Below, piece by piece: positions 5,365 through 25,146 of a DNA stretch of 64,000 nucleotides (its first letter is position 1; the number at the start of each line of letters is the position of its first letter). The stretch is from Ochrobactrum sp. Marseille-Q0166. GTDB taxonomy: Bacteria; Pseudomonadota; Alphaproteobacteria; Rhizobiales; Rhizobiaceae. The DNA lies in NCBI RefSeq assembly GCF_014397025.1, contig NZ_JACJUO010000003.1, positions 1 through 64,000 of the forward strand, written 5' to 3'. A program made the position numbers and the translations under genes. The notes below the pieces were generated by a model. That model was not told the DNA's origin. It made no database searches and was given only the letters and a program-made list of their open reading frames with translations.

Positions 5365-5419
5365 TCACATGGTTCTTCAAAACGCTCCATTTTGCATTTA
5401 ATCTTTGAAAGGAAGAACG

Positions 5420-6070: not shown

Positions 6071-6382
6071 ATGACCGGATTATTACCAGATATTTTTTAT
6101 TTGCTTAGCTCTCTCAGTTTGCGGGCTAATTTTCACCGGAAGGCTCTTTCTTATGGGGCGGCATCCGTCGCCTTGTTTCCCGAAGAGACTCGTCATTACG
6201 AGAATTACGCTTACGCTTTGCTTTTAACAGGTCAAATACAAGAAGCATCTAGCGTTGTTGCTAAAGCACCTGCGTTATCCGCTAACCTACATTATTTAAA
6301 AAGTCGTATTGCAATTGTTCTCAGTGACAAATCTGATGGACAGAAAAATCTACAAAAATATCTGACCTTTGGGATTGTCTAA
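6071..6382 (+). CDS. TPR-type T3SS chaperone-like protein (103 aa)
   Basis: The protein consists of about two and a half TPR-like helical hairpins (ALSYGAASVALFPEETRHYENYAYALLLTGQIQEA is one, broken here only by description limits to residues 25-59), like the small TPR chaperones of needle subunits (SctG group). It is cytoplasmic. ATG 6071 follows a TGGGGAT site. Its TAA overlaps by one base the ATG of the next gene, and that gene in turn overlaps the secretin gene, so it begins or belongs to a translationally coupled block reaching sctV. Its client is most likely one of the small proteins immediately upstream (inference). Confidence 0.6.
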   Translation: MTGLLPDIFYLLSSLSLRANFHRKALSYGAASVALFPEETRHYENYAYALLLTGQIQEASSVVAKAPALSANLHYLKSRIAIVLSDKSDGQKNLQKYLTFGIV

Positions 6383-6951
6383 TGAGTGAAGCTGTCAATA
6401 AAGTTTCCGTCCAGTCACGTCAGACGGATTATGATAACTATCATGAGAAGATCGCAAGAGCCGCTTCCCCCGGAGCGACTGTTTCGCCATTGTCAAATGA
6501 TGTGGATGTGACATCCTATTCCGCGTTGCTGGATGAAGCTTATGACGGCGATCTATCGGAGTATATTGCAGTTGGACAAAGCGACCGACGCGCAGCTGAT
6601 GTTTCGGACGTGCGCCGACCTGATATTGCGGAAGAGTTTGAACAGCAGGACGAAAAAGGTCCTGCGTTTATGCGAAAAGGTCATCTTGAGAAACTAAGCC
6701 AAAACAAACAGGTCCAACATATAGAAACGTCAAACGATGGTGCGTCAGAACATCGGCCCCGTATAAGTATTAAAAATGCACATGATCGTTTTATGCTTAC
6801 ATCGTCTCAACTCAACTGCACCGAAGCCGGTTCGCGAGCCTGCCTCAAGGCGTTTTTAACCGTCGTTACTGTTTTGCACCACCCCTCTTGGGAGCGCATG
6901 GATTATCTTGAAAGACATCTCGTTCAGAATCAGATGGCGGTTGTTTTGTAA
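6382..6951 (+). CDS. Unknown 189-aa protein inside the secretin operon
   Basis: The start overlaps the previous stop and its stop overlaps the sctC2 ATG, so it is certainly translated with the apparatus genes. Residues 1-125 are polar and probably disordered (Ser/Asp/Glu/Gln rich, no signal peptide). Residues 130-189 look folded and helical (DRFMLTSSQLNCTEAGSR, then a hydrophobic helix around AFLTVVTVLHH). A disordered N-terminus with a small folded C-terminus is also the layout of SctP needle-length regulators, but I cannot see the T3S4 signature. It may be a secreted regulator or an accessory protein particular to this T3SS lineage. Confidence 0.55.
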   Translation: MSEAVNKVSVQSRQTDYDNYHEKIARAASPGATVSPLSNDVDVTSYSALLDEAYDGDLSEYIAVGQSDRRAADVSDVRRPDIAEEFEQQDEKGPAFMRKGHLEKLSQNKQVQHIETSNDGASEHRPRISIKNAHDRFMLTSSQLNCTEAGSRACLKAFLTVVTVLHHPSWERMDYLERHLVQNQMAVVL

Positions 6952-8237
6952 TGGCCTTTCACATTAAGTACATTCCATTTCTTAGGTTACTGACTGCAAT
7001 TATAATGCTCAGCTTCGCAGCATTGCCCAGCATAGCAGATGCTGCGGACCGCATGGCAATTGAAGTCGGCAAAGGTATCTATGTGGAGGGTTTCCAAAAT
7101 GTAGAAGCTGTTTTTGTCGCTGACACAACAATCGCGGATGTGACAAAATCCCCAGAAAATGCCATTTTTGTTCTCGGAAAGTCAGTCGGCGAAACAACGC
7201 TTATCGGTGTTGACGTGGCTGGAAGAAAATTGTTCAGCTACAATCTAATTGTAAGTGAGAACCTTGCCGGCGTGAGAGCAGCACTTTCAAGCCGGTTGCC
7301 GAATGCGCGGATTACAGTAGATGCCGCGAAGGGAAGTGTGCTGTTACGGGGGCAAGTCGCAAGCGAACCTGATCATCAGGCTGCTGTGGTAACCGTCCAG
7401 TCCATGCTTCCGAACGTTCGTATTATCGACGAACTCAAACCGTTGGATGGTAGGGCCGTGACACTGAAAGTGCAATTCATCGAGGTGGCACAGGACCGCC
7501 TTGCGAATTATGGAATTGATTGGAGTGCACTTTCTGCTTCTGATGACACAAAGTCGACGGGCATCTCCGGTTCGGAGGGTAAACGTCTTACGCAGATATT
7601 GAACCTTCTTCTTGATCAAGGCGTAGCAACTGTTGCATCTCAATCTGACTTATCGGCGCTCAACGGCTCAAAGGCCACTTTGACTATCGGCAACGAGATT
7701 GCACTCCCTAAAATGATGCTTTCCGAGACAGGCGGTCGCCAGACAGTGGGAACCGACTATAAAGCTGTTGGGCTTTCGTTGGACTTCCAACCGACGCTAA
7801 TGGATAATGAGCGCGTCTCTCTCGTAATAAACTCGGTCATTTCCAGTATTATTCCAGCTGCAAGTGGCAAAAATAACGAAGTGCCTCCCACTTTGTCGAC
7901 GAGGCGGCTGGGAACTACTATTGAACTCGAAAGTGGCCAGGCATATGCCATTGCCTCGCTATCCCGCATCGATACAATGGCCGAGGTAGATCAGCCAGCA
8001 GCCCTGTTCGGGGCAAAGCTTGCTCGCCTTCTGTTTGGCTCGGACAGGACATTAATAACACAGCGTGATCTTATTGTGGTTGTTACACCGCATTTCGGCG
8101 AGGCAGTTGTTCCTGCAAAAGTTTTAGCTAAAGGTAAAAGCCAACTCGAAGAGCTTTTAACTCTGAAGGCATCGCGTTGCTGTAAAGGAGATGTATCGCA
8201 AATTCGCTTATATGGGCAGCCCGGCTTTTTGTATTAA
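6951..8237 (+). CDS. sctC2: T3SS secretin, C-terminal part (RhcC2/CpaC-like)
   Basis: 428 aa with a Sec signal peptide ending near residue 31 (SIADA-ADR). Residues 35-110 form the pilus-formation N-terminal domain also found in the Tad secretin CpaC (GKGIYVEGFQNVEAVFVAD, DVTKSPENAIFVLGKSVGETTL). A BON/KH-like segment follows (residues 118-165), then the secretin domain (VTLKVQFIEVAQDRLANYGI to ITQRDLIVVVTPHF). It should form the outer-membrane ring. In rhizobial T3SSs the secretin is split into RhcC1 and RhcC2; this is the C2 half, placed here before C1. The N-terminal domain is Tad-like rather than classic T3SS N0/N1. Its likely pilotin is the TadD-like lipoprotein at 24331. Confidence 0.9.
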   Translation: MAFHIKYIPFLRLLTAIIMLSFAALPSIADAADRMAIEVGKGIYVEGFQNVEAVFVADTTIADVTKSPENAIFVLGKSVGETTLIGVDVAGRKLFSYNLIVSENLAGVRAALSSRLPNARITVDAAKGSVLLRGQVASEPDHQAAVVTVQSMLPNVRIIDELKPLDGRAVTLKVQFIEVAQDRLANYGIDWSALSASDDTKSTGISGSEGKRLTQILNLLLDQGVATVASQSDLSALNGSKATLTIGNEIALPKMMLSETGGRQTVGTDYKAVGLSLDFQPTLMDNERVSLVINSVISSIIPAASGKNNEVPPTLSTRRLGTTIELESGQAYAIASLSRIDTMAEVDQPAALFGAKLARLLFGSDRTLITQRDLIVVVTPHFGEAVVPAKVLAKGKSQLEELLTLKASRCCKGDVSQIRLYGQPGFLY

Positions 8238-8246
8238 ACCGAATAT

Positions 8247-8879
8247 ATGATAAAAATTCAATTGCGCTCCTGCATTTTAGCCGTAAGTGTATTTTTTTGT
8301 TCTTTTGCTTTTTGTGACGCTCATTTGTACGCGAGGCCGCTTCCGCAGGCCACGAGTCCATATGAATATACAAGCCATGATCAAAGCCTCGCAGATGTTT
8401 TGAGATACTTTGGAAAAAACATTGGCATGTCAGTTAAAATTTCCGGAAAACTCGACACCCCTGTCTCTTTGCCTAAAGATGTGCGCTGGACACGGCAATC
8501 TTTTCTGAATTACCTTTCCGCATGGTACCGCCTTGTTTGGTATCTCGATGATTCTTCACTATTTTTTTCATTGTCGGATGATCAAGCAACGGAGCTATTT
8601 TCGTTTAAACAGCCAAATACCGGCAATGTTCTCAGCGCGCTTTCTCACATAGGTCTGCTAGAAGGCAAATTTATCCACCGCTATGACCCCAGCAGTAAAA
8701 TGCTGCTCGTTAAAGGTCCTCTCAGCTATGTCGAGAAAATCAAAAAGGCTTTGATTGTTTTCGAGAAAGCTGACCGGGTAACAACCACGATTTTACGTGG
8801 ACAGGCAGAGCCAGATGGACAAATCCAAATGCCTCCTCTCCAGGCGACTGAAGACAAAAGGCTTCTCCCATCCTTATAG
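8247..8879 (+). CDS. sctC1: T3SS secretin, N-terminal part (RhcC1-like)
   Basis: 210 aa with a signal peptide (hydrophobic residues 8-25, cleavage near DAHLYA). The mature protein has an N0-like domain (SLADVLRYFGKNIGMSVKIS, residues 48-67) and an N1-like domain (LSALSHIGLLEGKFIHRYD then LLVKGPLSYVEKIKKAL), the periplasmic domains that join the secretin to SctD. It lacks the membrane-spanning barrel, which sits in the separate upstream gene. It begins nine bases after the sctC2 stop and is followed 12 bases later by sctV, so all three are co-transcribed. The split is typical of the rhizobial lineage and not a recent mutation. Confidence 0.85.
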   Translation: MIKIQLRSCILAVSVFFCSFAFCDAHLYARPLPQATSPYEYTSHDQSLADVLRYFGKNIGMSVKISGKLDTPVSLPKDVRWTRQSFLNYLSAWYRLVWYLDDSSLFFSLSDDQATELFSFKQPNTGNVLSALSHIGLLEGKFIHRYDPSSKMLLVKGPLSYVEKIKKALIVFEKADRVTTTILRGQAEPDGQIQMPPLQATEDKRLLPSL

Positions 8880-8891
8880 ATAAGTGGCATC

Positions 8892-10943
8892 GTGAAACTC
8901 TCATTCCATATTGAAAATTTCAGGAAAAGTCGCGGTATTGGGCTTGTATTGGCTTTTGCAGTGATCATCTTGATGATGATCCTACCACTGCCTGACATTC
9001 TGATGGACTTTTTCATTACCATAAATATAAGTCTATCAATCGTAATCTTAGTAGTCTCATTGCAGCTATCTGCACCTGTGCACTTTTCGACCTTTCCGTC
9101 ATTGCTTCTGCTTACGACATTGTTTCGTCTCTCAATTTCCATCTCCACGACGAGATTGATTTTGACACAGGGCAGTGCTGGCCAGATTGTTGAAACTTTT
9201 GGTGATGTGGTCATCAGCGGCAATTTGATTGTAGGGCTGGTAATCTTTCTCATAATAACAATTGTTCAGTTTCTTGTAATTACCAAAGGTGCGGACCGCG
9301 TTGCGGAGGTAGGTGCTCGTTTCACCTTAGACGGAATGCCCGGGAAGCAGATGAGTGTCGATGCTGATGTGCGCGCGGGGAGCCTTGACTATCTTGATGC
9401 TTTAGAAGCACGACGCAGGTTAGAAAAGGAGGCTAAACTCTTTGGCTCTATGGATGGTGCACTCAAATTCGTAAAAGGAGACGCGATTGCTGGCCTTGTT
9501 ATAACCATCATCAACCTAGTCGGCGGTATTGCCATTGGTATGCTTCAACGCGATATGCCTTTTAGCGAAGCATTGAAACTCTATTCGCTGATGACAGTTG
9601 GTGACGGTCTCGTTGCGCAAATCCCTGCGCTGCTAATTTCGGTTGCTGCCGGTAACATGGTGACCCGCGTTGCGGACCATCGTGGCGTAGATCTAGGGTT
9701 TGAAATAAGCGAACAAATCACACAAAACCCTCGTACGTTATCGGTAGCCGCGCTTACTATTATTGCATTTGGATTTATTCCTGGTTTTCCTTTCCTGCTA
9801 TTTGCCATTGTTGGCGGAGCAATTCTAGCGGGAAGTCAATGGCATTTACGTTCGAGCAATCAATTGGCTAATCTTGCGTCTACGGATTGGCTTAAAATCC
9901 AGAAAGTAAACGCAAAGACGTGTGATGAAATCCAACAGCGCACAGGCCGACTGGAAACCCTTATGCTTACTTTGCCGCCGACCATAAAATCTACTGATGC
10001 TATAGCGTTTGCGGCGACGTTCGACAGCATACGAACATCTGTGGCTCAAGAGCTTGGGCTTCCAACAGGTTTCTGGCGATTCGAGATCGACGAGTCTGCT
10101 CAAAATGACTACAAAATATCGATTAACCAAGAGTTTCTCGTTCGAGGTGAATTCATCGGTAGCTCAGTGTTTGTCAAAGCTAATCCGAGTTATCTTCAAA
10201 CACTTGATATAGTTTGTAAATCTCATTACGGCGCACGCGAAGGCGCAGTCGTCGCTGATTCCTTCGTACCTATATTGAAACATGAGGGCATTCCTTATTG
10301 GAATGCCACTGAACTCATGCTGCGCCATATCAAAGTAGCAATTGCTGAGAACGCCGTTCGATTCGCATCATTGGAGAATGTCAGTGATCTCCTAAACCGA
10401 ACAAGGCCTAATCATAAAGTTTTAGTGACAGATGTCACAGAGGCCTTATCTCTAAACACGATTTGCGTGATTATAAAAAACTTCTGCCGTGAAAGATTGC
10501 CTTTGACCAGTCTGGTACGTATTCTGGAAGAGGCACTTGCCTGGGCTTCCCACAATCCGGAACCATCTTTTCTCACACAGAAAATCCGGATTGCTCTTGC
10601 AGATTTTCTCACCAACAGATTTGCGCCGGATGGTTTCTTACCAGTCATTCTGACATCTCCGACGATTGAAGGTTATCTTCGCGATGGTGTACGAAAAACC
10701 GATGAGGGGAATTTTTTACTTTTGGAGCCTTCGATTGCAGAGCTTTTGAAAACGGGAATTAAGTCAATAATTGGTGAAAGTTATCAACGAAATAAACATC
10801 CAGTGATTATAACGCAGCAAGACGTACGTCCTCTGCTGTTCAGCGTTCTGCATGAAAATGGTATATTCATCCCTGTATTAGCCTACCAAGAAATTCTTCC
10901 AGGCACAGTGATATATCCTGTGAGCGTATTGATGGATGAGTGA
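8892..10943 (+). CDS. sctV: T3SS export gate protein SctV (FHIPEP/LcrD family)
   Basis: 683 aa, full length for the family, from a GTG at 8892. Eight membrane helices fill residues 1-320, including the conserved stretch SLQLSAPVHFSTFPSLLLL and TLFRLSISISTTRLIL, then the FHIPEP-type loop with KGADRVAEVGARFTLDGMPG and GKQMSVDADVRAG. The cytosolic domain (residues 340-683) forms the nonameric ring that selects substrates and engages chaperones. It is physically separate from the main apparatus operon and sits downstream of the split secretin. I see no truncation or missing conserved region. Confidence 0.95.
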   Translation: MKLSFHIENFRKSRGIGLVLAFAVIILMMILPLPDILMDFFITINISLSIVILVVSLQLSAPVHFSTFPSLLLLTTLFRLSISISTTRLILTQGSAGQIVETFGDVVISGNLIVGLVIFLIITIVQFLVITKGADRVAEVGARFTLDGMPGKQMSVDADVRAGSLDYLDALEARRRLEKEAKLFGSMDGALKFVKGDAIAGLVITIINLVGGIAIGMLQRDMPFSEALKLYSLMTVGDGLVAQIPALLISVAAGNMVTRVADHRGVDLGFEISEQITQNPRTLSVAALTIIAFGFIPGFPFLLFAIVGGAILAGSQWHLRSSNQLANLASTDWLKIQKVNAKTCDEIQQRTGRLETLMLTLPPTIKSTDAIAFAATFDSIRTSVAQELGLPTGFWRFEIDESAQNDYKISINQEFLVRGEFIGSSVFVKANPSYLQTLDIVCKSHYGAREGAVVADSFVPILKHEGIPYWNATELMLRHIKVAIAENAVRFASLENVSDLLNRTRPNHKVLVTDVTEALSLNTICVIIKNFCRERLPLTSLVRILEEALAWASHNPEPSFLTQKIRIALADFLTNRFAPDGFLPVILTSPTIEGYLRDGVRKTDEGNFLLLEPSIAELLKTGIKSIIGESYQRNKHPVIITQQDVRPLLFSVLHENGIFIPVLAYQEILPGTVIYPVSVLMDE

Positions 10944-14389: not shown

Positions 14390-14680
14390 ATGACTGATAA
14401 GGGTTTCGACTCGCTTCTTTTTGCGGGTAGCGGCTTTTCGTTCGACGAGATTGTTAGGACGGTCGCCTGTGGAGGAAAGGTGGCGGTCATCAAATATCTT
14501 GAATGTCGCCGTCGTATTTTTATTCGCGAAATGAATAACGATCCTACAGACGATCCGAATGGTCAAGGTTATTTGAGTGTTTTGGCCGCTTTAGATACGG
14601 CGCTCTCATTGTTTGATCAGTTTATCGTTGATAGCTCAAATGATGGCGTAGCGCAGGACAGTGATGAGAGTGCATCGTGA
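14390..14680 (+). CDS. First gene of the main T3SS operon, unknown 96-aa protein
   Basis: ATG 14390 follows CGAGGG. The protein is small, soluble and helical (FDEIVRTVACGGKVAVIKYLE; LSVLAALDTALSLFDQFIV), acidic at the C-terminus, with no signal peptide. Its stop overlaps the GTG of sctD (GTGA), so it is coupled to apparatus synthesis. In other systems genes next to sctD encode needle co-chaperones (SctE) or small exported proteins; the size and helical character would fit, but the sequence gives no match I can defend. Confidence 0.55.
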   Translation: MTDKGFDSLLFAGSGFSFDEIVRTVACGGKVAVIKYLECRRRIFIREMNNDPTDDPNGQGYLSVLAALDTALSLFDQFIVDSSNDGVAQDSDESAS

Positions 14681-15756
14681 TATCGGCGTGGTTTTCCTTA
14701 CCCAATTTTCCACGGCGACACGTATATCTGGCGAATGGCATATCGACAGTCGGCAGTGATCTCACATGTTCAATCGTTTTGTTAGATCCGATGGTAGCGG
14801 CCCATCATTTCACATTCAATGTGAACGGCAGCGAGGTCGTTGTAGAAGTAGCACCAGAGGCGTCGATAAGAGTGGAATCTGCGGGTGGTGCAAAAGATTT
14901 TGTCCTCAAGGGCGGTGAACATCGGGTCTTATGTGTTGGTGATCGACTATGGATAGGTCAGATGATAGTCGATGTAACAGGTCTATCCGTACGACAGGAT
15001 GCGGGCGTAAGTTTCGCACGCCGTGATCCGGCCAAAACGAGGATATGGCCAACACTTATGTGCTGCTCAGGGCTGACTCTCTTGGGTGTCTGGCTATTGT
15101 CGTCGATATCGGAAAGTTCCGGTGGGGTGAATTCATCTGGGGAGAACTATGCCACACCTACTATCCCCACGGCCATTGAGGCATCAGATGTTATAGGAAT
15201 CTCATCTCGCCAGAATGTTTTAGATGAGTTCAGTTATGTATCCCTCTCGCCATTCGAGCTCCAATGGCGCAAGGGAAAATGGAGAGCTAAACTCTATGTA
15301 ACGCATCAGAGTGAACGTGCTGACGTTATTTACAAGATTAGTAACTTTCCATTTGCAATCGATGCACTGGTATATTCTGATCAAGAATTGAAGCGTGTCG
15401 CAGAGACTGTGCTTTCGAGTTTAGGGTTCTCACTGGATGTGTGTGTTGAGAAAGGAATAATCAAACTTTCCGGCATTAATCGACAGTACAGAGACAAACT
15501 CCGGCGTGACCTAATCGCCGATATACCTGGCCTTAGAGAAGTGACTTTCAAGAATAGTGCAGGAAGAGAGTTGACTTCAGCTGAGTTTGGCGTTGTCGCA
15601 TTGTGGAATGGAGAGCGCCCCTATGTCGTAACAGCAGACAATCGAATTGTTAGAGTGGGGGAAATCATTACAACTGGAGTAAAACTCGCGCAGGTTAGGT
15701 CTGACTACGTGGTGATTGATTTTCACGGCGAGTTTAAAAAAGTGAGTATTTTATGA
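14677..15756 (+). CDS. sctD: T3SS inner-membrane ring protein SctD
   Basis: 359 aa from a GTG overlapping the preceding stop. Residues 1-105 form a cytoplasmic FHA-like domain (VYLANGISTVGSDLTCSIVL, AAHHFTFNV). One transmembrane helix lies at about residues 126-145 (TLMCCSGLTLLGVWLLSSI). The periplasmic part contains a ring-building BON-like repeat (LKRVAETVLSSLGFSLDVCV to DIPGLREVTF) and a C-terminal beta segment. It makes the outer of the two inner-membrane rings with SctJ and contacts SctC1. Length and layout are normal for the family. It overlaps the following gene by ATGA. Confidence 0.85.
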   Translation: MISAWFSLPNFPRRHVYLANGISTVGSDLTCSIVLLDPMVAAHHFTFNVNGSEVVVEVAPEASIRVESAGGAKDFVLKGGEHRVLCVGDRLWIGQMIVDVTGLSVRQDAGVSFARRDPAKTRIWPTLMCCSGLTLLGVWLLSSISESSGGVNSSGENYATPTIPTAIEASDVIGISSRQNVLDEFSYVSLSPFELQWRKGKWRAKLYVTHQSERADVIYKISNFPFAIDALVYSDQELKRVAETVLSSLGFSLDVCVEKGIIKLSGINRQYRDKLRRDLIADIPGLREVTFKNSAGRELTSAEFGVVALWNGERPYVVTADNRIVRVGEIITTGVKLAQVRSDYVVIDFHGEFKKVSIL

Positions 15757-16208
15757 ACTTTGCAACGGCACAGTTAAATGATGATGATATTTTCCTACTG
15801 GGTAATATTGCAACCTATGGTGTCTGCGCTGGCTATGGAGAAGAAGCTATCAAAATTCTCCGCCTCATTCAGATGGCACGTCCGGACAATGCTGGTGTTC
15901 TGGTGCTGGAGGCAATGTATATGCATTCCATAGGGAAGACGCGCGCTGCTATCGAATTCTTGGAGAACGGATCAGCGTTAGACGCACGTGTTAATCGCGA
16001 TGAAGCCGTGGCGTTTTACCTATACCTTTTGCAACAAGATAAGCAGTTACACCGTGTAGAGAGCATAGCTCGCACTTATTTTGAACAAGGTTTGATTTCA
16101 TCGCCTGAAGCCAAGCGTGCAATTGAGTTGATACTTGCAGAAATATCTGATCAGCTATCCCCTATAAGTCAACATAGGACTGCTCCAGAAGAGGGAGCTT
16201 TCATTTGA
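15753..16208 (+). CDS. HrpB1-like TPR protein of the T3SS
   Basis: 151 aa, all-helical with TPR-like repeats (AGYGEEAIKILRLIQMARPD, LVLEAMYMHSIGKTRAAIEFL). Both the fold and the position, directly before sctI-sctJ-sctK-sctL-sctN-sctO, correspond to HrpB1 of Xanthomonas and Ralstonia, a small protein needed for secretion; SctG-type needle chaperones are the other possibility. No signal peptide is present. It overlaps sctD and sctI by four bases each, in a run of coupled genes. The similarity rests on pattern and synteny more than on identity. Confidence 0.7.
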   Translation: MNFATAQLNDDDIFLLGNIATYGVCAGYGEEAIKILRLIQMARPDNAGVLVLEAMYMHSIGKTRAAIEFLENGSALDARVNRDEAVAFYLYLLQQDKQLHRVESIARTYFEQGLISSPEAKRAIELILAEISDQLSPISQHRTAPEEGAFI

Positions 16209-16597
16209 GTTTGATTCAAGTATCTCTCAACGATATTCCGCAAGCCGCTACACAGGGATGGGAAAACGTTCGTAATAAGCTTATATCGAGCCTCAAGGAG
16301 CAAGAGACTTCTATCAGCGGGAGCATCCGTAATAGTGTGGATGATTCAAGTGCGCTTATGAGCCTTCCCGAGCACCTTCGCAGCGAGTTCAGGAGACTGG
16401 ATGCAATGGCTCAGTCACCTGAGCAGCAGAAGTATGTGGCTGAAGTAAAACGCAACGTCTTAGCGCTTCATGAAGCACGCGCAGCCAACATACGTGAAAA
16501 AGTTTCGATGAACATAAGTAAGATGAATTTTGAGTTTGCCATGAAAGCAATCTCGAAATCGGTTTCTGCAATACAGCAAGTTCTTTCGTCACAATGA
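16205..16597 (+). CDS. sctI: T3SS inner rod protein SctI (HrpB2/YscI position)
   Basis: 130 aa from a TTG that overlaps the preceding TGA. The C-terminal 45 residues are the informative part: IREKVSMNISKMNFEFAMKA then SKSVSAIQQVLSSQ, an amphipathic helix ending in a short polar tail as in inner rod and HrpB2 proteins, which join the export gate to the needle. The N-terminal half is variable, as usual. It lies immediately before sctJ, the near-universal place of sctI. It overlaps sctJ by ATGA. Early secretion substrate by analogy. Confidence 0.75.
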   Translation: MSLIQVSLNDIPQAATQGWENVRNKLISSLKEQETSISGSIRNSVDDSSALMSLPEHLRSEFRRLDAMAQSPEQQKYVAEVKRNVLALHEARAANIREKVSMNISKMNFEFAMKAISKSVSAIQQVLSSQ

Positions 16598-17352
16598 TGC
16601 GTCCATTGCGCTCCAAGCTATTTTTTTTAATGGCAGTACTGGTGATTTTGGCCGGCTGTGAAGATGAACTCAATCGTGGCCTTGATGAAAGGGAAGCGAA
16701 TTTAATGATGAGCAACTTGCTGAAGCATAATATTGGCTCATCTAAGCAGTCACAGAAGGATGGTACTGTTAAACTATTTGTTGAGCGATCAAAATTCGCG
16801 AAGGCAGTGGAATTGCTTGAAAGTCTCAAACTGCCTCGTCCTAAGTATGTCAATGTTGGCGAGCTTTTTAAAGATACTGGTTTGATTTCCAACCCGCTTC
16901 AGGAATGGGCACGTTTCGTTTATGCGCGTTCACAGGAATTAGCTAAGTCGATATCCGAGATGCCAGGAGTAGTATCGGCAGAAGTCCATATAGCAAGTCC
17001 TAGAAAAGTAGACCCATTCACCGAGGTGACGCCTCCCAGCGCATCAGTTTTGGTGGTTATCGAGCCTGAGTTGACCGATCCAGCAATTATACCTCAGATT
17101 AAATCCCTCATATCTTACAGTATTGAGAATATGAGTTATGACAGAGTGGCTGTTGTCGTATCACGCGTTGAACCAGCTTCTTTTCCAGTTGAGCGTGTCG
17201 TCACGGTTGCTGGGTTTTCTGTTCCAGAAGCACAACTTTCAAAGGTGTTTACGTTAATACTCGTGGCGGGACTGGCAATCAGTGTTGCCGCCGGCGTAGC
17301 ATTTTCGGTTCTATGGCGTATCTTTTTGCGACGCAGAACAATCGACAGATAA
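16594..17352 (+). CDS. sctJ: T3SS inner-membrane ring lipoprotein SctJ
   Basis: 252 aa. A lipoprotein signal with lipobox VILAGC places the acylated Cys at about residue 22. The two ring-building domains follow (LDEREANLMMSNLLKHNIGS; then PLQEWARFVYARSQELAKSI, MPGVVSAEVHIASP, and SASVLVVIEP), with the Pro-rich motif typical of YscJ/HrcJ. A C-terminal membrane helix (residues 219-243, LILVAGLAISVAAGVAFSVLW) and a basic tail are present. Everything expected of a functional SctJ is intact. A 63-base gap separates it from sctK. Confidence 0.95.
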   Translation: MMRPLRSKLFFLMAVLVILAGCEDELNRGLDEREANLMMSNLLKHNIGSSKQSQKDGTVKLFVERSKFAKAVELLESLKLPRPKYVNVGELFKDTGLISNPLQEWARFVYARSQELAKSISEMPGVVSAEVHIASPRKVDPFTEVTPPSASVLVVIEPELTDPAIIPQIKSLISYSIENMSYDRVAVVVSRVEPASFPVERVVTVAGFSVPEAQLSKVFTLILVAGLAISVAAGVAFSVLWRIFLRRRTIDR

Positions 17353-17415: not shown

Positions 17416-18024
17416 TTGTTTCATCAGTCAAATTATATAGTTCCTGACCGGTTTGCCTGTTTGCTAAGCCTTACAGATATAACACTCGCAGATATGCTCC
17501 TGAATTGTCGGTTCCTTCAATCAAGTATAGACGATGTGATAAATAGTCTTTTGAGCGATCTTCCAGATACGAAAGATACAACGACAAGTAAGCTATGCAA
17601 ATATGTAATTTGTTCTTCAATAGAAGACTTAAAAAAAGTATCCCGTATTACAACATTACTTATCAACCAGCAGGCTGTTAGAGCGTCGATAAATGGAGAA
17701 GAGCTTCTCGCTTTTGCACAATGGTGTGGAACTGCTGCGCCATTCAGACTGATTAGAGAATGCAAGCTCCCCAGCTTACCTCGTACTTTCACGTTATCAG
17801 AAGTGTCGATAGAGACACTCGGTCTGTTCGCTGACCATGTTTTTAATCTCATTCTTGGACTCCTTCCGTCAGGGATATTTGAACGCTTTCAGTTGAATTG
17901 CTCGGCAGATCTAAATCCAACTCCGTTCCCTGATAACCAAGAACATCGATTAGCATTCGAAGCACATTGTCTCCATGGTATCGATATATCCCTTTCCGTT
18001 CGGGGTGAGCATGCAGCAGATTAG
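17416..18024 (+). CDS. sctK: T3SS sorting-platform protein SctK
   Basis: 202 aa from TTG 17416, with GAGGAG ten bases upstream; no ATG fits. The family (YscK/HrpB4) is very divergent, and I assign it by position between sctJ and sctL, by length and by helical content. SctK proteins connect SctQ pods to the SctD ring in the cytoplasm. The last residues overlap the start of sctL. The alternative, an unrelated accessory protein, is unlikely given the conserved J-K-L-N-O order. Confidence 0.7.
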   Translation: MFHQSNYIVPDRFACLLSLTDITLADMLLNCRFLQSSIDDVINSLLSDLPDTKDTTTSKLCKYVICSSIEDLKKVSRITTLLINQQAVRASINGEELLAFAQWCGTAAPFRLIRECKLPSLPRTFTLSEVSIETLGLFADHVFNLILGLLPSGIFERFQLNCSADLNPTPFPDNQEHRLAFEAHCLHGIDISLSVRGEHAAD

Positions 18025-18619
18025 GGGACTACCAACATTACAACGAGGGCAGATCATTGATTGTTGTACCATTCATAAGCTTCTCTCCGCCGAAAATATT
18101 ATTGAGACAGCGCATCGCACTGCTAACGAAATCATCGAGCAAGCAGAAAAAGATGCTAATGACTTAAGACGGCATGCTCAGCAGCAAGGACTATTAGAGG
18201 GAAGAGCTGTCTTTGATGATGTCAGTCGTTATTTTAATGGAATGCGTGACTCACTAAAGTCCCAGGTTCTTGGATTGCTGCAACAGTGCCTTGGTCGACT
18301 GCTGAGCGAAATCCCAAGACAAGTGATATTGGAACTAACCTTGGAAACGGCGATGCGGACAGTCCGCGCAATCAATCCGAGGTTGACGTTGCATGTTGCG
18401 CCAGAAAATTTTGAACCTGCCAGACGTGCGATCTGTAGCTGGCGCGAGAAGTCCAATGCCTCCACAAAAATCGATGTAGAGATTGGTACAGATCTTCAGC
18501 CAAGTGAATGTCGCCTTTACGCGGGAGACGAGGTTATAGAGTCAAGCCTAGATATTATTGCCGATGGGCTGATCTGTGCATTCTACGACGATTCAACGTC
18601 GCGTTTTTCCAATGACTGA
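18011..18619 (+). CDS. sctL: T3SS ATPase stator SctL
   Basis: 202 aa using ATG 18011, which has GGGGTGAGC in front; GTG 18005 or ATG 17975 in the same frame are alternatives. Residues 25-60 make a long Ala/Glu-rich helix ([33 protein letters not shown]), as in FliH/YscL stators. The C-terminal half resembles the V-ATPase subunit E-like domain ([31 protein letters not shown]). It links SctN to SctQ. It overlaps both sctK and sctN by a few bases. Confidence 0.85.
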
Positions 18620-19934
18620 CAATTTTTCCATCGAAACCACAGTTGATAGCGGTCAGTGCAACATTAATATCCCTTTGAGAAGCAAGGGTCGTGTTAGCAG
18701 TTGTACCGGCGTGCTCGTCAAAGCCGCGGGCAGCTTTTCGATTGGTCAAGTTTGTCGTATTTCTCGTTCGTCACGTGAATCCATACTAGCTGAAGTTGTG
18801 GGATTTGATGGGGGGCAAGCGCTGCTTAGTCCATATGACCGTGTGATCGGTGTTTCTCATAATTCAACGATTGAACCTGTTTCTCAGGCGTTCGATGTCG
18901 CCGTTGGTACCGCGCTTACAGGAAGGGTCATTGATGCTTTCGGGAACGTGATTGATGGCCGTAGTCCACTGCAGCTGGTACAACGCTATCCATGCTACCA
19001 GGCTCCACCTCATCCCCTTTTACGACCGGCGATCACGCGGCCATTCCCACTCGGAGTGAGGGCTCTCGACGGTGTATTAACATGCGGTGAGGGCCAGAGA
19101 ATGGGGATTTTTGCTGCTGCAGGCGGTGGAAAATCCACCCTCGTATCGCTGTTAGTGCGCAATGCGCTTTATGATCGATGCGTTATTGCTTTGATCGGTG
19201 AGCGGGGCAGAGAGGTGCGGGAGTTCGTAGAGACCCAACTTGGAATCCAAGGCTTGGCCAAATCGGTCGTAATCGTTGCCACGTCCGATCGGCCCGCGAT
19301 GGAGCAGATTAAAGCAGCTTACACCGCAACAGCGATTGCTGAATATTTCAGGGATCGTGGAGAAAAGGTACTGCTTATTATGGACAGCCTGACACGCTTT
19401 GCTCGTGCGCAGAGACAAATCGGACTTGCTGCTGGTGAGCCACCAGCGCGGCGCGGTTTTCCTCCTTCTATTTTTGAACAGCTTCCGATTTTGCTAGAAC
19501 GAGCAGGAACAAGTCAGGTAGGCTCCATTACGGCATTCTATACAGTTTTGGTCGAGGGCGACGACATGGATGAGCCAATCGCCGATGAAGTAAGATCGCT
19601 ACTGGACGGTCATATTATTTTGTCTCGTAAACTCGCGAGCACAGGCCACTATCCAGCAATTGATATTGTTGCGAGCGCAAGTCGTCTTGTCACGCAAATT
19701 CTCCCTAAACCACATGTGCTTGCCATCAATGCGCTACGTGGTCTGTTAGCAAAGTATGATGCAATTGAGTTACTCATACGTATCGGTGAATATGAAAGCG
19801 GTCACGATAGAGTTGCCGACGAGGCGATTGAACGTAAGCCTGAGATTGATAATTTCCTCCGCCAAAGCAATGCCGAATACGACAACTTTGAAGATACAGC
19901 GACACGCCTAATGCAAGTGGTCGGCCGTGGTTGA
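18612..19934 (+). CDS. sctN: T3SS ATPase SctN
   Basis: 440 aa from ATG 18612 inside the sctL 3' end. Walker A is AAAGGGKST at about residues 167-175, Walker B lies in [15 protein letters not shown], followed by the F1-type catalytic region [18 protein letters not shown]. The N-terminal beta-barrel domain and the C-terminal helical domain are complete. It is the hexameric ATPase that strips chaperones and unfolds substrates at the base of the export gate. All key residues of the FliI/YscN family are present. Confidence 0.97.
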
Positions 19935-20412
19935 TTTTAGTCATATTGTATATCTCCGCGAACAACGAGCGACCAGAGCAAGAAGTCGTGTCGCAATGGC
20001 GGCGGAGAACTTGCGCGCACAGCGTGAAGAGCATCAACAACTGGAGACGCAAAGGAAGGCCTTTCTGATCGATATCCATGAGCTCGAAATAGGGCTTGTG
20101 AATGCATTACTGGACAAGACAGTAACCATTAATGATGTGTTGCGGGTAGACGAAATAATGAGGGTAGCGACACAGCGCGGGAAAAATTTAGCCGATAAAG
20201 TGAATGCAGCACTCCGCAGTGTGGAAGACGCGACTACGCTGTATCAGCAACACAAAGATGCATTGTTACGATTTGAAAGAAAACGCGAGAAGAGCCTAGA
20301 GGTATTAGCTAGCATACTTGAGGGTGAACGACTGCGTTTTCTGCGTCAGGATGAGGAAAAGATGGACGAATATGTAGGTTTCACCGTTGCAAAGCGAGCA
20401 ATGCATGAATGA
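19927..20412 (+). CDS. sctO: T3SS ATPase stalk protein SctO
   Basis: 161 aa from GTG 19927, overlapping the end of sctN. It is one long antiparallel coiled coil rich in Arg, Glu and Gln ([40 protein letters not shown]), the shape of FliJ/YscO/HrpB7. It inserts into the SctN hexamer and touches SctV. Sequence conservation in this family is low; position between sctN and sctQ and the coiled-coil form make the call. It is directly followed by sctQ, with no sctP gene between, unlike Yersinia. Confidence 0.8.
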
Positions 20413-21484
20413 CCTGCTTTCGATGACTCCTGTTTGTAATGCGGGAGTGCAGATACTGGATTTTTTTAGCCGCTATTACTGGAAATATACAATCAACCAA
20501 TCGTTGTTGCCTGGGCCAGAAGTTCAAATCTCCATCGAGACAACGCATGAGGCTAAATTTACCACTCGTGATGCAATGATCTTTGCTTTGATTGTTGGAG
20601 TGCCAGTGTTGGTGCATATAAGCGGGAATATAACTGATGCGCTCAGTGATGCTCTAATTCCCGCATGGCGGGAGCAGTCATCTGCGGCTTTGCCAGAACA
20701 TTGGCGTATCGTGCTCACGATCACGCGCTTTTGTGAGATCGTATTCCCGAACATGGCGATTGAGAAGTTGCAGCTCAGGTCCGCCCCGCTGGTACGATCA
20801 TTTAGCACATCTACAGATTGTGTGTGTGCAGAGATTGGTGTCGGCAAACACGAGGGTAGAATTGCAGTCATTTGTGATTTCGTCGCATTGGCAAGCCAAC
20901 AGATTGATTTCTCGGCGTTACTTCGCCTTCGAAGATCTGCACCATTGCCTCCCTGTCGCATGGATATTGGCTTTTTGCCAACGCGTTTCACAAACGCCGA
21001 GTTTAGCGCACTTGCCGTTGGCGATGTTGTTATTATTGGGGAAATTGTCAACGGCGATATGCCCGTGACAGGAAAGATTTTTGGCTTTGGTAAATTTCAT
21101 CTGCTGATAGCTTCCAGCGGCGGAGCCAAGATAAAGGAGTTGCAAGTGAACATGGAGAATGAGGAGCAAATTGCAATGTCTAGCTTAATAGAGCATGAAA
21201 CTGCTGGTTCTATGCATCAGATGGCTCAGAACCAACAAGCAGAGCTCGCCGACACCTTTGCAATGCTGCCAGTGACACTTGAAGTGCGCCTGGCCACAAT
21301 AGCCGTTTCTCTCGAGCACCTTCGCGACTTAGGTCCGGGAGCGGCGCTCAAACATTCTTTTGATCTCTCTGATCCCGTTATAATTTTTGCTAACGGCGTT
21401 CGCTTCGGGACGGGAAAGCTTATTCGTATGGACGATATGGTCGGCGTACAAATTAGCCAATGGCCTGTGCAAGCAGTCGGGTAG
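20405..21484 (+). CDS. sctQ: T3SS cytoplasmic C-ring component SctQ
   Basis: 359 aa from ATG 20405, overlapping sctO by eight bases. A poorly conserved N-terminal half is followed by two surface-presentation-of-antigens (SpoA) domains: one around residues 185-250 (FTNAEFSALAVGDVVIIGEI) and one at the C-terminus (LPVTLEVRLATIAVSLEHLR, LGPGAALKHSFDLSDPVIIF). It forms the pods of the sorting platform with SctK and SctL. An internal start producing a short SctQ-C product, common in this family, could exist near the ATG at 21151 (MENEEQIAMS...). Confidence 0.85.
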   Translation: MNDLLSMTPVCNAGVQILDFFSRYYWKYTINQSLLPGPEVQISIETTHEAKFTTRDAMIFALIVGVPVLVHISGNITDALSDALIPAWREQSSAALPEHWRIVLTITRFCEIVFPNMAIEKLQLRSAPLVRSFSTSTDCVCAEIGVGKHEGRIAVICDFVALASQQIDFSALLRLRRSAPLPPCRMDIGFLPTRFTNAEFSALAVGDVVIIGEIVNGDMPVTGKIFGFGKFHLLIASSGGAKIKELQVNMENEEQIAMSSLIEHETAGSMHQMAQNQQAELADTFAMLPVTLEVRLATIAVSLEHLRDLGPGAALKHSFDLSDPVIIFANGVRFGTGKLIRMDDMVGVQISQWPVQAVG

Positions 21485-21488
21485 CGTT

Positions 21489-22148
21489 ATGTTAAACGGA
21501 TTGGTTCCCGTCGTTCCGACAACGCTTGCAATTATGGCATTGACTTTTCTGCCTCTCGTCATCGTAATGGGAACTGCATTCACGAAAATCTCAATTGTTC
21601 TTCTACTTGTGCGTAACGCGATGGGCGTCCAGCAGGCTCCTTCGGGTCTCGTTATTAATTCGATAGCGCTTGTTCTGGCGGCGTTTATCATGGCGCCCAT
21701 TGCTGTTGGAATTACATTGAAAATATCTGAACTCGATCCCGTGCTTAACGAGTGGCAGAGTGCGGTAGATGTATATTCCATAATCGAGAAGGATTATGGA
21801 GAATACCTTACAAAATTTTCGGAAAAGAAAGAGCTTGCGTTTTTTATGGATGCCGCAAAAAAAATGTGGCCTCATGATCTACATGATTATGTTACCGAAA
21901 AAAATATTCTTATACTTCTACCAGCACACGTGGTATCCGAAATAACAAAAGCATTTGAAATCGCTTTTCTTCTTTTTCTTCCTTTTGTAATTATTGATTT
22001 GATCGTATCAAACATTCTTTTAGCGATGGGCGCAATGATGGTTCCACCCATGCTCATCTCTCTTCCGATTAAAATCCTCTTGTTTGTTGCAGTCGATGGG
22101 TGGGCACGCCTTCTGCACAATCTTGTGCTCAGTTATGCGCCAGGGTAA
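21489..22148 (+). CDS. sctR: T3SS export apparatus protein SctR
   Basis: 219 aa from ATG 21489, five bases after the sctQ stop. It is a multi-pass membrane protein with family signatures TAFTKISIVLLLVRNAMGVQ and FVIIDLIVSNILLAMGAMMV followed by PPMLISLPIKILLF. SctR forms a pentamer that, with SctS and SctT, builds the export gate. Full length, no missing conserved residue seen. Confidence 0.97.
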   Translation: MLNGLVPVVPTTLAIMALTFLPLVIVMGTAFTKISIVLLLVRNAMGVQQAPSGLVINSIALVLAAFIMAPIAVGITLKISELDPVLNEWQSAVDVYSIIEKDYGEYLTKFSEKKELAFFMDAAKKMWPHDLHDYVTEKNILILLPAHVVSEITKAFEIAFLLFLPFVIIDLIVSNILLAMGAMMVPPMLISLPIKILLFVAVDGWARLLHNLVLSYAPG

Positions 22149-22156
22149 AAAAGAAA

Positions 22157-22420
22157 ATGACATCAGATGAAGTGCTTTTTACTGCAAGTACCGCTGTTCA
22201 GCTTATATTTTTATTATCAATGCCAATCATTGTAGTTGTCACTATAGTTGGAATTATAGTTGCGCTGTTACAAACGGTAATCCAGTTGCAGGAACAGACG
22301 CTATCATTCGGTGTAAAACTAACCACCGTCGTGATCATGCTATTCGTGATGGGCCCGTCTATGGCGCACCAATTATTGGTTCTCATGGAAAAGATGCTTG
22401 ATCGTGTAATATTGCTATAA
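22157..22420 (+). CDS. sctS: T3SS export apparatus protein SctS
   Basis: 87 aa with two membrane helices, the standard FliQ/YscS size. The conserved loop VALLQTVIQLQEQTLSFGVK carries the Gln-rich core. It follows sctR at nine bases. ATG 22157 is the natural start; the frame is open further upstream but without purpose. It packs around the SctR5-SctT core in the gate. Confidence 0.95.
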   Translation: MTSDEVLFTASTAVQLIFLLSMPIIVVVTIVGIIVALLQTVIQLQEQTLSFGVKLTTVVIMLFVMGPSMAHQLLVLMEKMLDRVILL

Positions 22421-22518
22421 TTGGAATGGTTTAAGCGTGCTTGAAAAGAAAAATCCTTAGACAATGTGATCCGATGATGGAGTTTGTGGTGACTTGATCT
22501 ACAACTGGTTCTTTGCTG

Positions 22519-23310
22519 ATGTTTGACTTTTCTGATAATAATCAGATCTTTGCCGTAAGCCTCGCCACAATTCTAATTGTAGCACGCTTCTGCGCATTTT
22601 TTGTGGCGTCTCCCTTATTGTCTAGACGCACCATCCCGCGGTTGCTCGCTCTGGGGTTAGCTCTCGCCATCAGCTTAGTCTGTCTGCCGGCGGCAATCCC
22701 AACGCTCACGTCGAATGATCTGCATCCGACCAAACGGGTTATCCTTCTCATCATTAAAGAAGCCGCGACAGGATACCTGATGGGAATTGTACTCTGGCTC
22801 CCGGTACGCGGGCTTGAAATGGCTGGTGCTATTCTTGATTCTCAGCGAGGCAGCACACAGGCTCAAGATTTTGACGTAGTTTTTGTTAACCAGACCACAC
22901 CAACGGCCATTCTTTTGTCCCAAGTGTTCAACGGATTTTTCTTTTCCTCCGGCGGCTTTTTGATAATTGTAAAACTGCTTTATGAGAGCTTACTCCTCTG
23001 GCCACCATCAGATTTCTGGCCTGAGATTAGTGAAAAAACACTACAGCTCCTTTTAAAATTTTCAGGTGAGATGCTTCTATCAGGACTCATTATTGTGCTG
23101 CCGATATCAGTTTTTATGTTGCTCGCTGATATTGTCATTAGCTTTATCGCAAGGAGCGCACCCAATCTGAATGCACTCACATTTGGTATGCCTGTAAAAT
23201 CTGCGATCCTTATAATTATGCTTTTTTCGTATTTTCATATTCTGTTTCCAGAGCTTATGAAAACTTTTAGCAACGGTTCGCGCATGATGCTGGAAGTGTT
23301 GAAACCATGA
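22519..23310 (+). CDS. sctT: T3SS export apparatus protein SctT
   Basis: 263 aa from ATG 22519, though TTG 22513 is in frame. At least six membrane helices. Family features are the early ARFCAFFVASPLLSRRTIPR, the EAATGYLMGIVLWLPVRGLE stretch and GAILDSQRGS. SctT caps the SctR ring and forms the entrance of the gate. A 98-bp gap, the longest within this operon, separates it from sctS. It overlaps sctU by ATGA. Confidence 0.93.
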   Translation: MFDFSDNNQIFAVSLATILIVARFCAFFVASPLLSRRTIPRLLALGLALAISLVCLPAAIPTLTSNDLHPTKRVILLIIKEAATGYLMGIVLWLPVRGLEMAGAILDSQRGSTQAQDFDVVFVNQTTPTAILLSQVFNGFFFSSGGFLIIVKLLYESLLLWPPSDFWPEISEKTLQLLLKFSGEMLLSGLIIVLPISVFMLLADIVISFIARSAPNLNALTFGMPVKSAILIIMLFSYFHILFPELMKTFSNGSRMMLEVLKP

Positions 23311-24344
23311 GTGATGATAAGACAGAAAGCCCTACACAATTTCGACTGCGAGAACAGCGTAAGAAAGGCAATATCCCACAACGAAAGAATGCTACAGAAG
23401 CGATCTGTTTGCTTTCATCAGTTGCTATTTTAGCTGCTCTTGCACCGCACTACAGCGCGGCAACTTTTGTTTTATTTGACATCGCTATGACGAGTCCAAC
23501 ACAATCGTTCACTCAAGGGATTATACAATCGTGTCGGTATGTCTATCCGCTTGCTTACTTTACCCTCGCATTTAGCGTGGGATCGGCGGGCGTAACTCTC
23601 CTAAGTACCCTACTTTTCAATAAGTTCAACGTTGCGCCGTCAGCACTTTCACCAAAGTTTGACAAACTCAACCCAGTGAATGGGTTAAAACGTATAATAT
23701 CAAAAGCGACCCTTTACAACGCACTTCGGCTCACGATTTATTTTGGCGCCATAGCTTGCCTATTATATTTATTTGTTGTGTCAAATATCCATAATGCTCA
23801 TTATGCGATGTTATATGATGTAGATGCTATCTTTTTATATTTTCTTCGACTATTCCGACATATCGTTATTGGAATTCTATCTATCTTGTGCACACTCGCT
23901 GTTTTGGATTGGTGGATACAAAGCCGATTGTTTTTGTCTCAAAGCAAAATGTCCAAAGATGAAGTTAGGCGCGAATACAAGTCCCAAGAAGGCGATCCTC
24001 AGATTAAATCAGCGCGCAAAGCAATTGCGCAGCAGGACAGTCATATCCCTCTCGCCAAAGAAGCTACTCATGTAATTTACAGCAATGAACTTTTGGTGGC
24101 TATCATTTTTAATGAAACGTCTGGTATGCCGCCGTTTATGGTAGCTCGGGTTAAAGGTTCTGCTGTTGGGGCGGTTAAGCATCTTTATAGGAATCTCCGG
24201 ATACCAACATTATATATGCCGCGCGTTGCGAATGACTTTTTTAACATGGCTCAACCCGGAAAATTCCTTTTGGCCCGATCAGCCGAAGGAATGTCGGAGA
24301 TACTTAATTCATTAGAAAGAAAAGTCCAGAATGAGACCTATTAG
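23307..24344 (+). CDS. sctU: T3SS export switch protein SctU with NPTH motif replaced by NELL
   Basis: 345 aa. The N-terminus (SDDKTESPTQFRLREQRKKG) and the four-helix membrane domain are typical of FlhB/YscU, as is KMSKDEVRREYKSQEGDPQI leading into the cytoplasmic domain. At the autocleavage site, where the family has NPTH, this protein reads YSNELLVAIIF: Asn260 is kept, but Pro, Thr and His are all replaced (codons 24084-24095). Asn cyclisation next to Pro needs that context, so self-cleavage and the substrate switch that depends on it are probably absent. The rest of the domain (ARVKGSAVGAVKHLYRNLRI, then PTLYMPRVAN) is recognisable and uninterrupted, so the gene is not decaying. Confidence 0.93.
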   Translation: MSDDKTESPTQFRLREQRKKGNIPQRKNATEAICLLSSVAILAALAPHYSAATFVLFDIAMTSPTQSFTQGIIQSCRYVYPLAYFTLAFSVGSAGVTLLSTLLFNKFNVAPSALSPKFDKLNPVNGLKRIISKATLYNALRLTIYFGAIACLLYLFVVSNIHNAHYAMLYDVDAIFLYFLRLFRHIVIGILSILCTLAVLDWWIQSRLFLSQSKMSKDEVRREYKSQEGDPQIKSARKAIAQQDSHIPLAKEATHVIYSNELLVAIIFNETSGMPPFMVARVKGSAVGAVKHLYRNLRIPTLYMPRVANDFFNMAQPGKFLLARSAEGMSEILNSLERKVQNETY

Positions 24345-25146
24345 ACGTCATGATGTAGGTTACAACAAAAAGAAACGTAATTGGCACATCGTTGCGCGCA
24401 TATGTATAGTGATTTGTGCCGTGGATTGTCTGGCATCAATAGCTGGATGTGCGGGGCCTAACTCCAATGCTGATAGCGTGACACGTCAAGTCGCAGCGGG
24501 CGAGAGGTTTTTATCTGCTGGAAATTATGCTAAAGGTTATCAGATTCTCGACAATATCGGTGAAAATAATCCAGCTTCTGCCGAAGCAGCATTGAAGGTT
24601 GCTGACACCTATTTTGTGCATCACGCCTATCTTCGAGCAAAAGCTCACTACAAAAATGCCATTGCGCGGGGTAACCGCACCGCTGGTGAGCTGGGACTTG
24701 GGCGTGTTATGTTAGCGACTAATGAAGCAGTTTTAGCCGAACAACAATTCCTTACCATATTAAATGTCCGCCCGCAGTCTGCGGAAGCGTTGAATGGCCT
24801 TGGTGTAGCGCTCGATCTCCAAGGGCGCCACCAAGAAGCTCAGCATCAGTATACCAAATTACTAGAAAGCCTGCCTACCGACAGGAATGGGAATAATAAC
24901 CTTGCAGTTTCTTATATACTGGCGGGGCGACAGGGAGAGGCATCCAATCATTTGGGGGAGCTTGCACGCTCCTATCTGGATGATCCTGTTATTCGTCAGA
25001 ATCTCGCGATGGCGCAGGTCTTGACAGGTGATCGTTACGCAGCAGAAAAGACATTCGCTCTAGATATGAGCCGGACAGAAGCGATGCATAATGTCCGTAC
25101 ACTCGAACAGCTATCGCGCCGAGGAGTTCTGACTGCTGTCAGATAA
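24331..25146 (+). CDS. TadD-like TPR lipoprotein, candidate secretin pilotin
   Basis: 271 aa. A basic N-terminus and hydrophobic helix end in lipobox SIAGC (Cys near residue 40), so it is probably an outer-membrane lipoprotein. Residues 60-265 are TPR repeats with the TadD-like sayings AEALNGLGVALDLQGRHQEA, NNNLAVSYILAGRQGEA and VIRQNLAMAQVLTGDRYAAE. TadD is the pilotin of the Tad secretin CpaC. Since sctC2 is CpaC-like, the pair may have been recruited together. It overlaps the sctU stop by 14 bases and is the last gene of the main operon. A comparable TPR protein accompanies rhizobial T3SSs. Confidence 0.75.
   Translation: MRPIRRHDVGYNKKKRNWHIVARICIVICAVDCLASIAGCAGPNSNADSVTRQVAAGERFLSAGNYAKGYQILDNIGENNPASAEAALKVADTYFVHHAYLRAKAHYKNAIARGNRTAGELGLGRVMLATNEAVLAEQQFLTILNVRPQSAEALNGLGVALDLQGRHQEAQHQYTKLLESLPTDRNGNNNLAVSYILAGRQGEASNHLGELARSYLDDPVIRQNLAMAQVLTGDRYAAEKTFALDMSRTEAMHNVRTLEQLSRRGVLTAVR

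Follow-up and report, generated by a model that had tools for sequence, protein, structure and literature searches.

Absence of the NPTH cleavage motif of SctU and of the sctP slot in a type III secretion operon of Ochrobactrum and in related systems

Can a type III secretion system (T3SS) operate when its SctU protein lacks the NPTH motif at which such proteins cleave themselves? This question is raised by the sctU gene of Ochrobactrum sp. Marseille-Q0166, a member of a genus now merged into Brucella. The gene lies in the first 64,000 nucleotides of contig NZ_JACJUO010000003.1 (the whole stretch analysed, hereafter the window), the start of one contig in a three-contig genome of 4.44 Mb; window positions 40000-63900 are 83% identical to an Ochrobactrum quorumnocens replicon. 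The motif is called conserved in PMC10333785, PMC7064499 and PMC3542141, the last two of which describe cleavage as required for switching. In the accessible text of the open-licence literature, rhizobial NPTH papers included, no statement was found that NPTH is missing from RhcU or from a SctU group of any kind, and no paper with both 'RhcU' and 'NPTH' was found; an earlier mention is possible. An earlier note, made from the letters of the window, had reported NELL instead of NPTH in an intact, tightly coupled sctU gene, and had proposed that the apparatus runs with an uncleaved SctU. The answer considered probable here is that a group of T3SSs, including the working system of NGR234, dispensed with the SctP/SctU cleavage switch as a unit. 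Loci and proteins of this analysis are labelled L and P, respectively.

The sctU reading frame is intact, as the earlier note had described. It shares 4 bases with the end of sctT and 14 with the downstream gene, and it encodes a protein that matches the Bac_export_2 family (PF01312) over residues 3-325. With TIGR01404, the NCBIfam SctU equivalog, it scores 194.3 bits, below the cut-off of 358. The Asn-Pro bond of canonical autocleaving SctU is absent: the site reads NELL, and no Asn-Pro was found in the cytoplasmic part of the protein. A second FlhB-family gene of the same genome (L002, taken as flagellar) retains NPTH. Compared with NPTH proteins, the strand-turn-strand region around the site lacks one residue, and two alignments of it differ by one column; one places Asn260 at the cleavage Asn, and the other places Ser259 there with a gap at Pro. 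Therefore, the claim that Asn was kept while Pro, Thr and His were replaced depends on the alignment. A sequencing error at the site is excluded: identical residues occur in P0002, an 81% identical relative on a separate contig, and NPTH is missing from the other eight near relatives as well.

In an AlphaFold2 model of the window SctU (44 sequences; mean predicted local distance difference test score (pLDDT) 88.6, and 94 across residues 251-270), the site forms the turn of a predicted beta hairpin (Table 1). A model of P0072, which is 90% identical to NGR234 RhcU, has strands at 261-264 and 268-273 (mean pLDDT 80.7). The helices and cytoplasmic fold of the modelled window SctU agree with FlhB/YscU structures, and the top Foldseek matches are the cytoplasmic domains of YscU, FlhB, EscU, and a Chlamydia homologue, including the uncleavable YscU N263A/N263D and EscU mutants. 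Compared with canonical FlhB, YscU, SpaS, and HrcU, the fold and membrane topology appear the same, whereas the Asn-Pro bond is missing and the operon has no SctP gene. What the models give is a predicted fold, from which a cut and an uncut chain cannot be told apart.

The earlier note had proposed to check whether a clade shares the NELL form, and it does not. Among nine near relatives found by protein search (one 81% identical, the others 36-42%), none has NPTH, and the letters at the site are NELL, EQFM, EQYM, SNHL, NALL, NSVL, SNHL, NSLL, and NSRL, so that NELL is common to the window and P0002 alone. NPTH is absent as well from all eight genome-contig loci L032-L039 (two Chelativorans, Leisingera, Martelella, Epibacterium, Roseibium, and two Rhodobacteraceae; at least one, L035, duplicates a protein of the nine-relative set), and from a Leisingera plasmid locus, L003, and L131. 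Site letters in the genome-contig loci include DQVL, DSHL, NSHL, and SEHL. Since the letters vary across the clade, NELL is ruled out as a new conserved motif. The SctU/FlhB alignment comprised 87 rows: 42 of NPTH type, 17 of the window's clade, and 28 others without NPTH. The Asn and Pro columns are invariant in all 42 NPTH-type rows (0 bits each), and the four motif columns carry 0-0.44 bits there versus 0.9-3.0 bits in NPTH-less rows. Within the window's clade the alignment has a gap at the Pro column, with 0.9-2.1 bits in the remaining motif columns, while flanking columns +6 and +7 are conserved in NPTH-less rows (0-0.7 bits), and the clade has conserved residues of its own near the site, namely Pro248 (17 of 17 rows), His255 (16 of 17), and Ala265 (17 of 17). 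To judge from these alignments, the site has become a freed turn, one residue shorter, in the window's clade. The clade is rare: matches at E 1e-30 occurred in three of 397 genomes drawn from its order, the genome of the window counted, and no relatives were found in viral contigs.

One alternative is continued cleavage of SctU, whether through Asn chemistry at Asn260-Glu261, at a different bond, or by a protease of the host. About half of the clade's tree rows (8 of 17) have Asn at the turn, and the uncleavable Shigella Spa40 mutant N257A is reported to yield an alternative 15-kDa fragment (PMC3542141). However, the clade does not conserve this Asn, and in the other NPTH-less rows Asn is not one of the common letters of the motif columns; Xanthomonas HrcU P265G is described as not detectably cleaved, with cleavage of P265A greatly reduced (PMC3040844). 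By analogy with HrcU, the missing Asn-Pro would predict an uncleaved SctU, in line with the earlier proposal, and continued cleavage seems quite unlikely.

Another alternative is that the system is decaying and SctU no longer functions. The branches are long (1.17 for the whole clade and 0.99 for the pair of the window and P0002), as might be expected of such a case. On the other side stand the intact overlapping operon, the same site in the 81% identical relative, and the loss of NPTH in rhizobial systems that work. Ratios of nonsynonymous to synonymous substitution (dN/dS) of sctU among three Leisingera-type loci are 0.043, 0.046 (dS near saturation), and 0.10; three of the six pairs compared, including the pair with the window, were saturated. 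sctU is thus under purifying selection in three clade members. A pseudogene is judged unlikely from the overlapping operon and the low dN/dS, decay is very improbable, and the earlier view of a change of lineage rather than decay holds good.

The loss of NPTH is not confined to this clade. A search with NGR234 RhcU found 112 proteins, and all 101 at 34% identity or more lack NPTH while the other 11 have Asn-Pro; a search with an Rhc-II protein found 318, and NPTH occurs in none of the 120 listed, many of them from Pseudomonas. In both searches the best-sharing candidates, about 8,000 each, were scored. Among plasmid loci fetched besides that of Leisingera, ten of 11 lack NPTH: NGR234 (both systems), R. 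johnstonii, R. etli Mim1, Bradyrhizobium, Mesorhizobium, Phyllobacterium, S. meliloti, Paracoccus, and Klebsiella aerogenes; R. etli IE4803 has it. Elsewhere Asn-Pro is retained in 143 of 144 SctU/FlhB (60 of 61 proteins, 11 of 11, and 72 of 72 loci L040-L111), the single exception among the 61, P0013, having a one-residue gap at Pro. In an additional set of 22 loci Asn-Pro is present in 18, and L131, L003, L133, and L143 lack NPTH. Since the loss covers Rhc-I and Rhc-II (subgroup names after the table in PMC3574062) and accompanies a missing sctP slot, it appears from the sequences compared to be a property of a large T3SS group and not a peculiarity of the window's operon. Both the same loss in Rhc-I and Rhc-II and the accompanying absence of the sctP slot were overlooked by the earlier note.

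NPTH-less SctU of other kinds was also seen. Two further types of T3SS SctU, with sites APDG/VPDG and AGNR/TGNR, occur in at least five other genomes of the same genus as the window (L015, L016, and L018; L017 and L025). L120, a Klebsiella aerogenes locus, has an Rhc-II-like NPTH-less sctU on an enterobacterial plasmid, and L133, from another family of the class, has a further distant NPTH-less SctU with the site FGGGAVVAL.

The second part of the switch is SctP, which is thought to act on cleaved SctU (PMC10333785). In the window the sctO-like gene overlaps both sctN and sctQ, and therefore there is no sctP slot; this is the arrangement described for Rhc systems, in which no hrpP/yscP-like gene separates O from Q (PMC3574062). 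Between sctN and sctR, counted from the end of the first gene to the start of the second, all 13 NPTH-less loci measured have 1453-1817 bp, which is space for the sctO-like and sctQ genes only; the 24 colinear NPTH loci have 2111-4210 bp. In L130 the open reading frame (ORF) at the sctO-like place is annotated on the opposite strand. Left out of this comparison were 48 of the 72 NPTH loci L040-L111, three of them (L059, L082, and L086) with the genes more than 10 kb apart and 45 with a gene lacking or on opposite strands, as well as L128 (R. etli IE4803), where no SctN was found. According to the part of Gazi et al. 2012 consulted (PMC3574062), hrpP/yscP-like genes are absent in all three Rhc subgroups, and the absence of sctP agrees with this for the group I and II loci measured.

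A SctP profile was built from the slot ORFs of 20 of the 24 measured NPTH loci (L066, L085, L093, and L100 unused), with six seeds chosen by eye and near kin for the leave-out tests named by hand; since slot ORFs themselves went into the iterations of the profile, the 20 are members partly by construction. Of six members scanned, L064, L048, and L109 match TIGR02514 or HpaP, and L097, L107, and L040 match neither. Leave-group-out runs recovered the slot ORF at E <1e-3 in 18 of 20 cases; it ranked first in 16 and second, behind the R. etli ORF, in the other four. Against the 3833 ORFs of 17 other loci the sole significant match was in R. etli IE4803 (E 6e-6); none of the 16 NPTH-less loci among them (L003, L015, and L017 being short) gave a significant one, their best having E 1.2. 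A SctP encoded elsewhere in these genomes, too diverged to be detected, would mean that NPTH alone was lost. SctP proteins are indeed described as poorly conserved (PMC3459982), the profile missed two of 20 known slot ORFs at E 1e-3, and the whole-genome search covered the window's own genome with Flg_hook. This explanation is nevertheless regarded as unlikely, given the slot missing from every measured NPTH-less locus and the published lack of such genes in Rhc systems. In the window's genome Flg_hook scores above cut-off once, on the contig with the NPTH-type flhB.

The R. etli IE4803 locus differs from the published absence. Its SctP-like ORF (L128:10485-11201, just before sctQ) also matches TIGR02514 at E 5.9e-4, below its cut-off, which suggests that this locus is an exception to the absence of sctP in Rhc. 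It is a rhizobial plasmid T3SS, placed in Rhc-III by species according to the table in PMC3574062, and unlike the window it has NPTH, the SctP-like ORF, and a full-length secretin.

In the explanation favoured here, the loss of the switch as a unit, SctU would be expected to stay in one piece because no Asn-Pro bond lies at the hairpin turn, and, with no sctP ruler/switch gene in the operon, the classical export switch would be missing as a whole. In that case SctU would serve as a fixed component: its membrane helices would close the SctRST gate, and a short plain turn would hold the uncut cytoplasmic domain. Export order, if any, would come from elsewhere, such as timed expression, chaperones, or SctV. 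Put most simply, the NPTH-less machines may run with uncut SctU and without SctP, their export order being unneeded or set otherwise. Such rhizobial systems do work: for NGR234, the assembly of pili and T3S are reported (PMC2427183), as are its effectors (PMC3355095, PMC11970910). In cleaving systems the reported effects of blocking cleavage vary. In Shigella it prevents substrate switching (PMC3542141), and in Yersinia it stops the translocators and not the effectors (cited in PMC3040844). In Xanthomonas, export of translocator and effector stops in HrcU N264A and is reduced in P265A (PMC3040844). HrcU Y318D is cleaved less, and with it late substrates are secreted even in the absence of HpaC, the SctP of Xanthomonas (PMC3040844); a SctU can therefore be shifted towards the late state without this protein.

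A different possibility is that the switch persists in another form, with a lineage-specific protein replacing SctP and acting on uncut SctU or on SctV, so that export is still ordered. FliK is said to bind cleaved and uncleaved FlhB similarly strongly (PMC3542141, citing Morris 2010), parts of the SctU cytoplasmic domain are conserved in the clade, and the cluster contains uncharacterised genes at 6382-6951 and 15753-16208. Yet neither the window nor the 15 other NPTH-less loci tested have a SctP-like match, and a structural role would also account for the conserved cytoplasmic domain; a replaced switch is a possible but doubtful alternative.

Several results weigh against the loss of the switch as a unit. 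In the SctU tree, built without the motif columns, the window's clade and the other NPTH-less rows each have 100/100 support, and the unconstrained tree requires two changes of NPTH state; a tree with all NPTH-less rows forced into one clade is not rejected (approximately unbiased test, p 0.372), and the union of the window's clade with Rhc is neither shown nor rejected. In a tree of SctN, SctR, SctS, and SctT from 43 loci, the window's clade (100/100) and three Rhc loci (99/99) are not joined, and the Rhc rows stand next to four Oxalobacteraceae NPTH rows (82/87), with a long-branch warning. That position, if true, favours two losses. One loss and two cannot be told apart from these trees. 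The window's genome holds two more Flg_hook matches below cut-off (E 0.27 and 0.43); a copy of SctP far from the operon could escape the profile because SctP evolves fast; and the Spa40 fragment points to the possibility of cleavage elsewhere or by a host protease.

Among known systems, NGR234 Rhc-I (RhcU/y4yO, on pNGR234a) resembles the window in the absence of NPTH, the turn one residue shorter, the single gene between sctN and sctQ, the RhcC1 remnant, and the order N-O-Q-R-S-T-U, but the SctU proteins are about 20% identical and the window's clade forms its separate branch. Genes named nop adjoin the NGR234 cluster; no search for nop genes was made in the window. Rhc-II and the P. syringae T3SS-2 (NGR234 pNGR234b, S. 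meliloti, Pseudomonas) likewise lack NPTH in the listed relatives; unlike the window, the turn is not shortened in ten aligned RhcII rows, which lie on the other tree branch. S. meliloti L130 (Rhc-II) shares the split Tad-type secretin and the missing sctP slot, whereas its sctU lies apart from sctRST. The T3SS of the window belongs to a rare alphaproteobacterial clade, in kind like rhizobial Rhc-I/II and possibly sister to them.

The window contains SctJ, L, N, Q, R, S, T, U, and V and a secretin, as a non-flagellar T3SS does, and its cluster has no flagellar genes, judged from ORF lists and family matches only (Table 1). Rhizobia are described as having a split secretin, an RhcC1 remnant with a Tad-type RhcC2 that carries BON (Abby and Rocha 2012, PMC3459982), and both parts are present in the window. 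Homologues of both occur in L034, L036, and L130, and of the remnant in L127 and L129. No match was found in other clade loci, several of them short or ending near the operon, nor in the Leisingera locus L112, taken with 18-kb flanks. In 16 NPTH loci the remnant query also matches long ORFs, which would be expected if the remnant and full secretins had a common origin, and the Tad-type query matches an ORF of about 770 codons in the NPTH locus L097 (E 1.5e-7). In the four loci where all three traits could be seen (the window, L034, L036, and L130), loss of NPTH, loss of sctP, and a split secretin thus co-occur. On balance it is favoured that autoproteolysis of the switch protein and the SctP ruler are one evolutionary module, shed jointly by a T3SS group that includes working symbiotic systems, probably on uptake of the Tad-type secretin; ordered early-to-late switching would then be dispensable, or a second ordering mechanism would exist. 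A large natural group without NPTH and, where measured, without sctP, which includes tractable rhizobia, offers a direct test of what cleavage is for, and NPTH, sctP, and secretin type form a trait set for sorting T3SSs.

Table 1. Coordinates of the T3SS genes and of the SctU site in the window
Feature	Position	Strand	Evidence
RhcC2-like (Tad-type) secretin: pilus N-domain, BON, secretin	6951..8237	+	PF13629, PF04972, PF00263
RhcC1-like secretin N-domain remnant	8247..8879	+	weak PF03958 E 0.03; phmmer to NGR234 NolW/RhcC1 ORF E 2.5e-12
sctV	8892..10943	+	TIGR01399 E 6e-192, 640 bits, under cut-off 692
sctD-like (FHA, Y4YQ_C)	14677..15756	+	family matches
sctJ	16594..17352	+	TIGR02544 189 bits, over cut-off
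sctL	17975..18619	+	TIGR02499 E 2e-13, under cut-off
sctN ATPase	18576..19934	+	PF00006 E 5.9e-85
sctO-like, between sctN and sctQ	19927..20412	+	position; phmmer matches 7/9 clade loci (L032-L037, L112); no NCBIfam match
sctQ	20387..21484	+	TIGR02551 E 4.4e-18
sctR (from first TTG; true start probably later)	21387..22148	+	PF00813 E 6.2e-58, profile match from residue 49
sctS	22100..22420	+	PF01313 E 2.6e-17
sctT	22513..23310	+	PF01311 E 1.1e-45
sctU (FlhB/YscU family), 345 aa, without NPTH	23307..24344	+	PF01312 E 4.9e-54
Predicted beta hairpin around lost site: strand 255-258 (HVIY), turn 259-261 (SNE), strand 262-267 (LLVAII)	24069..24107	+	AlphaFold2
N260-E261-L262-L263 codons (aat-gaa-ctt-ttg) at NPTH autocleavage position	24084..24095	+	codon reading, alignments
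TPR lipoprotein after sctU	24331..25146	+	TPR matches; weak PilW/Tgl/GltE matches

The TPR lipoprotein encoded after sctU is, from its family matches, probably a TadD/pilotin-like partner of the secretin, and a TPR protein gene also lies next to sctU in L112, L121, and L130. In S. meliloti, CpaD-like and TPR genes stand between the Tad-type secretin and sctU (L130:14725-16016). The gene content suggests that Tad accessory genes travelled together with the secretin.

Other genes near the T3SS were noted. Three otherwise unlike proteins, encoded at 1314-1832 (- strand), 2053-2643, and 2796-3551, have similar zipper-like ends as compared by eye (ALEAENIKLRKEL, ALEIENASLKREL, and ELEAENAGLKLLL, respectively). 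Two small proteins (5405-5668 and 5744-6013), which share AITNDHTKR / AIANDHSKR by eye and have no meaningful family match, are candidate needle or rod subunits. Between two blocks of T3SS genes lie a gene for a LytTR-domain membrane protein (11486-12415) and, by eye, one for a LysR-type-like regulator (12892-13785, - strand); annotated LysR genes flank the Leisingera cluster too.
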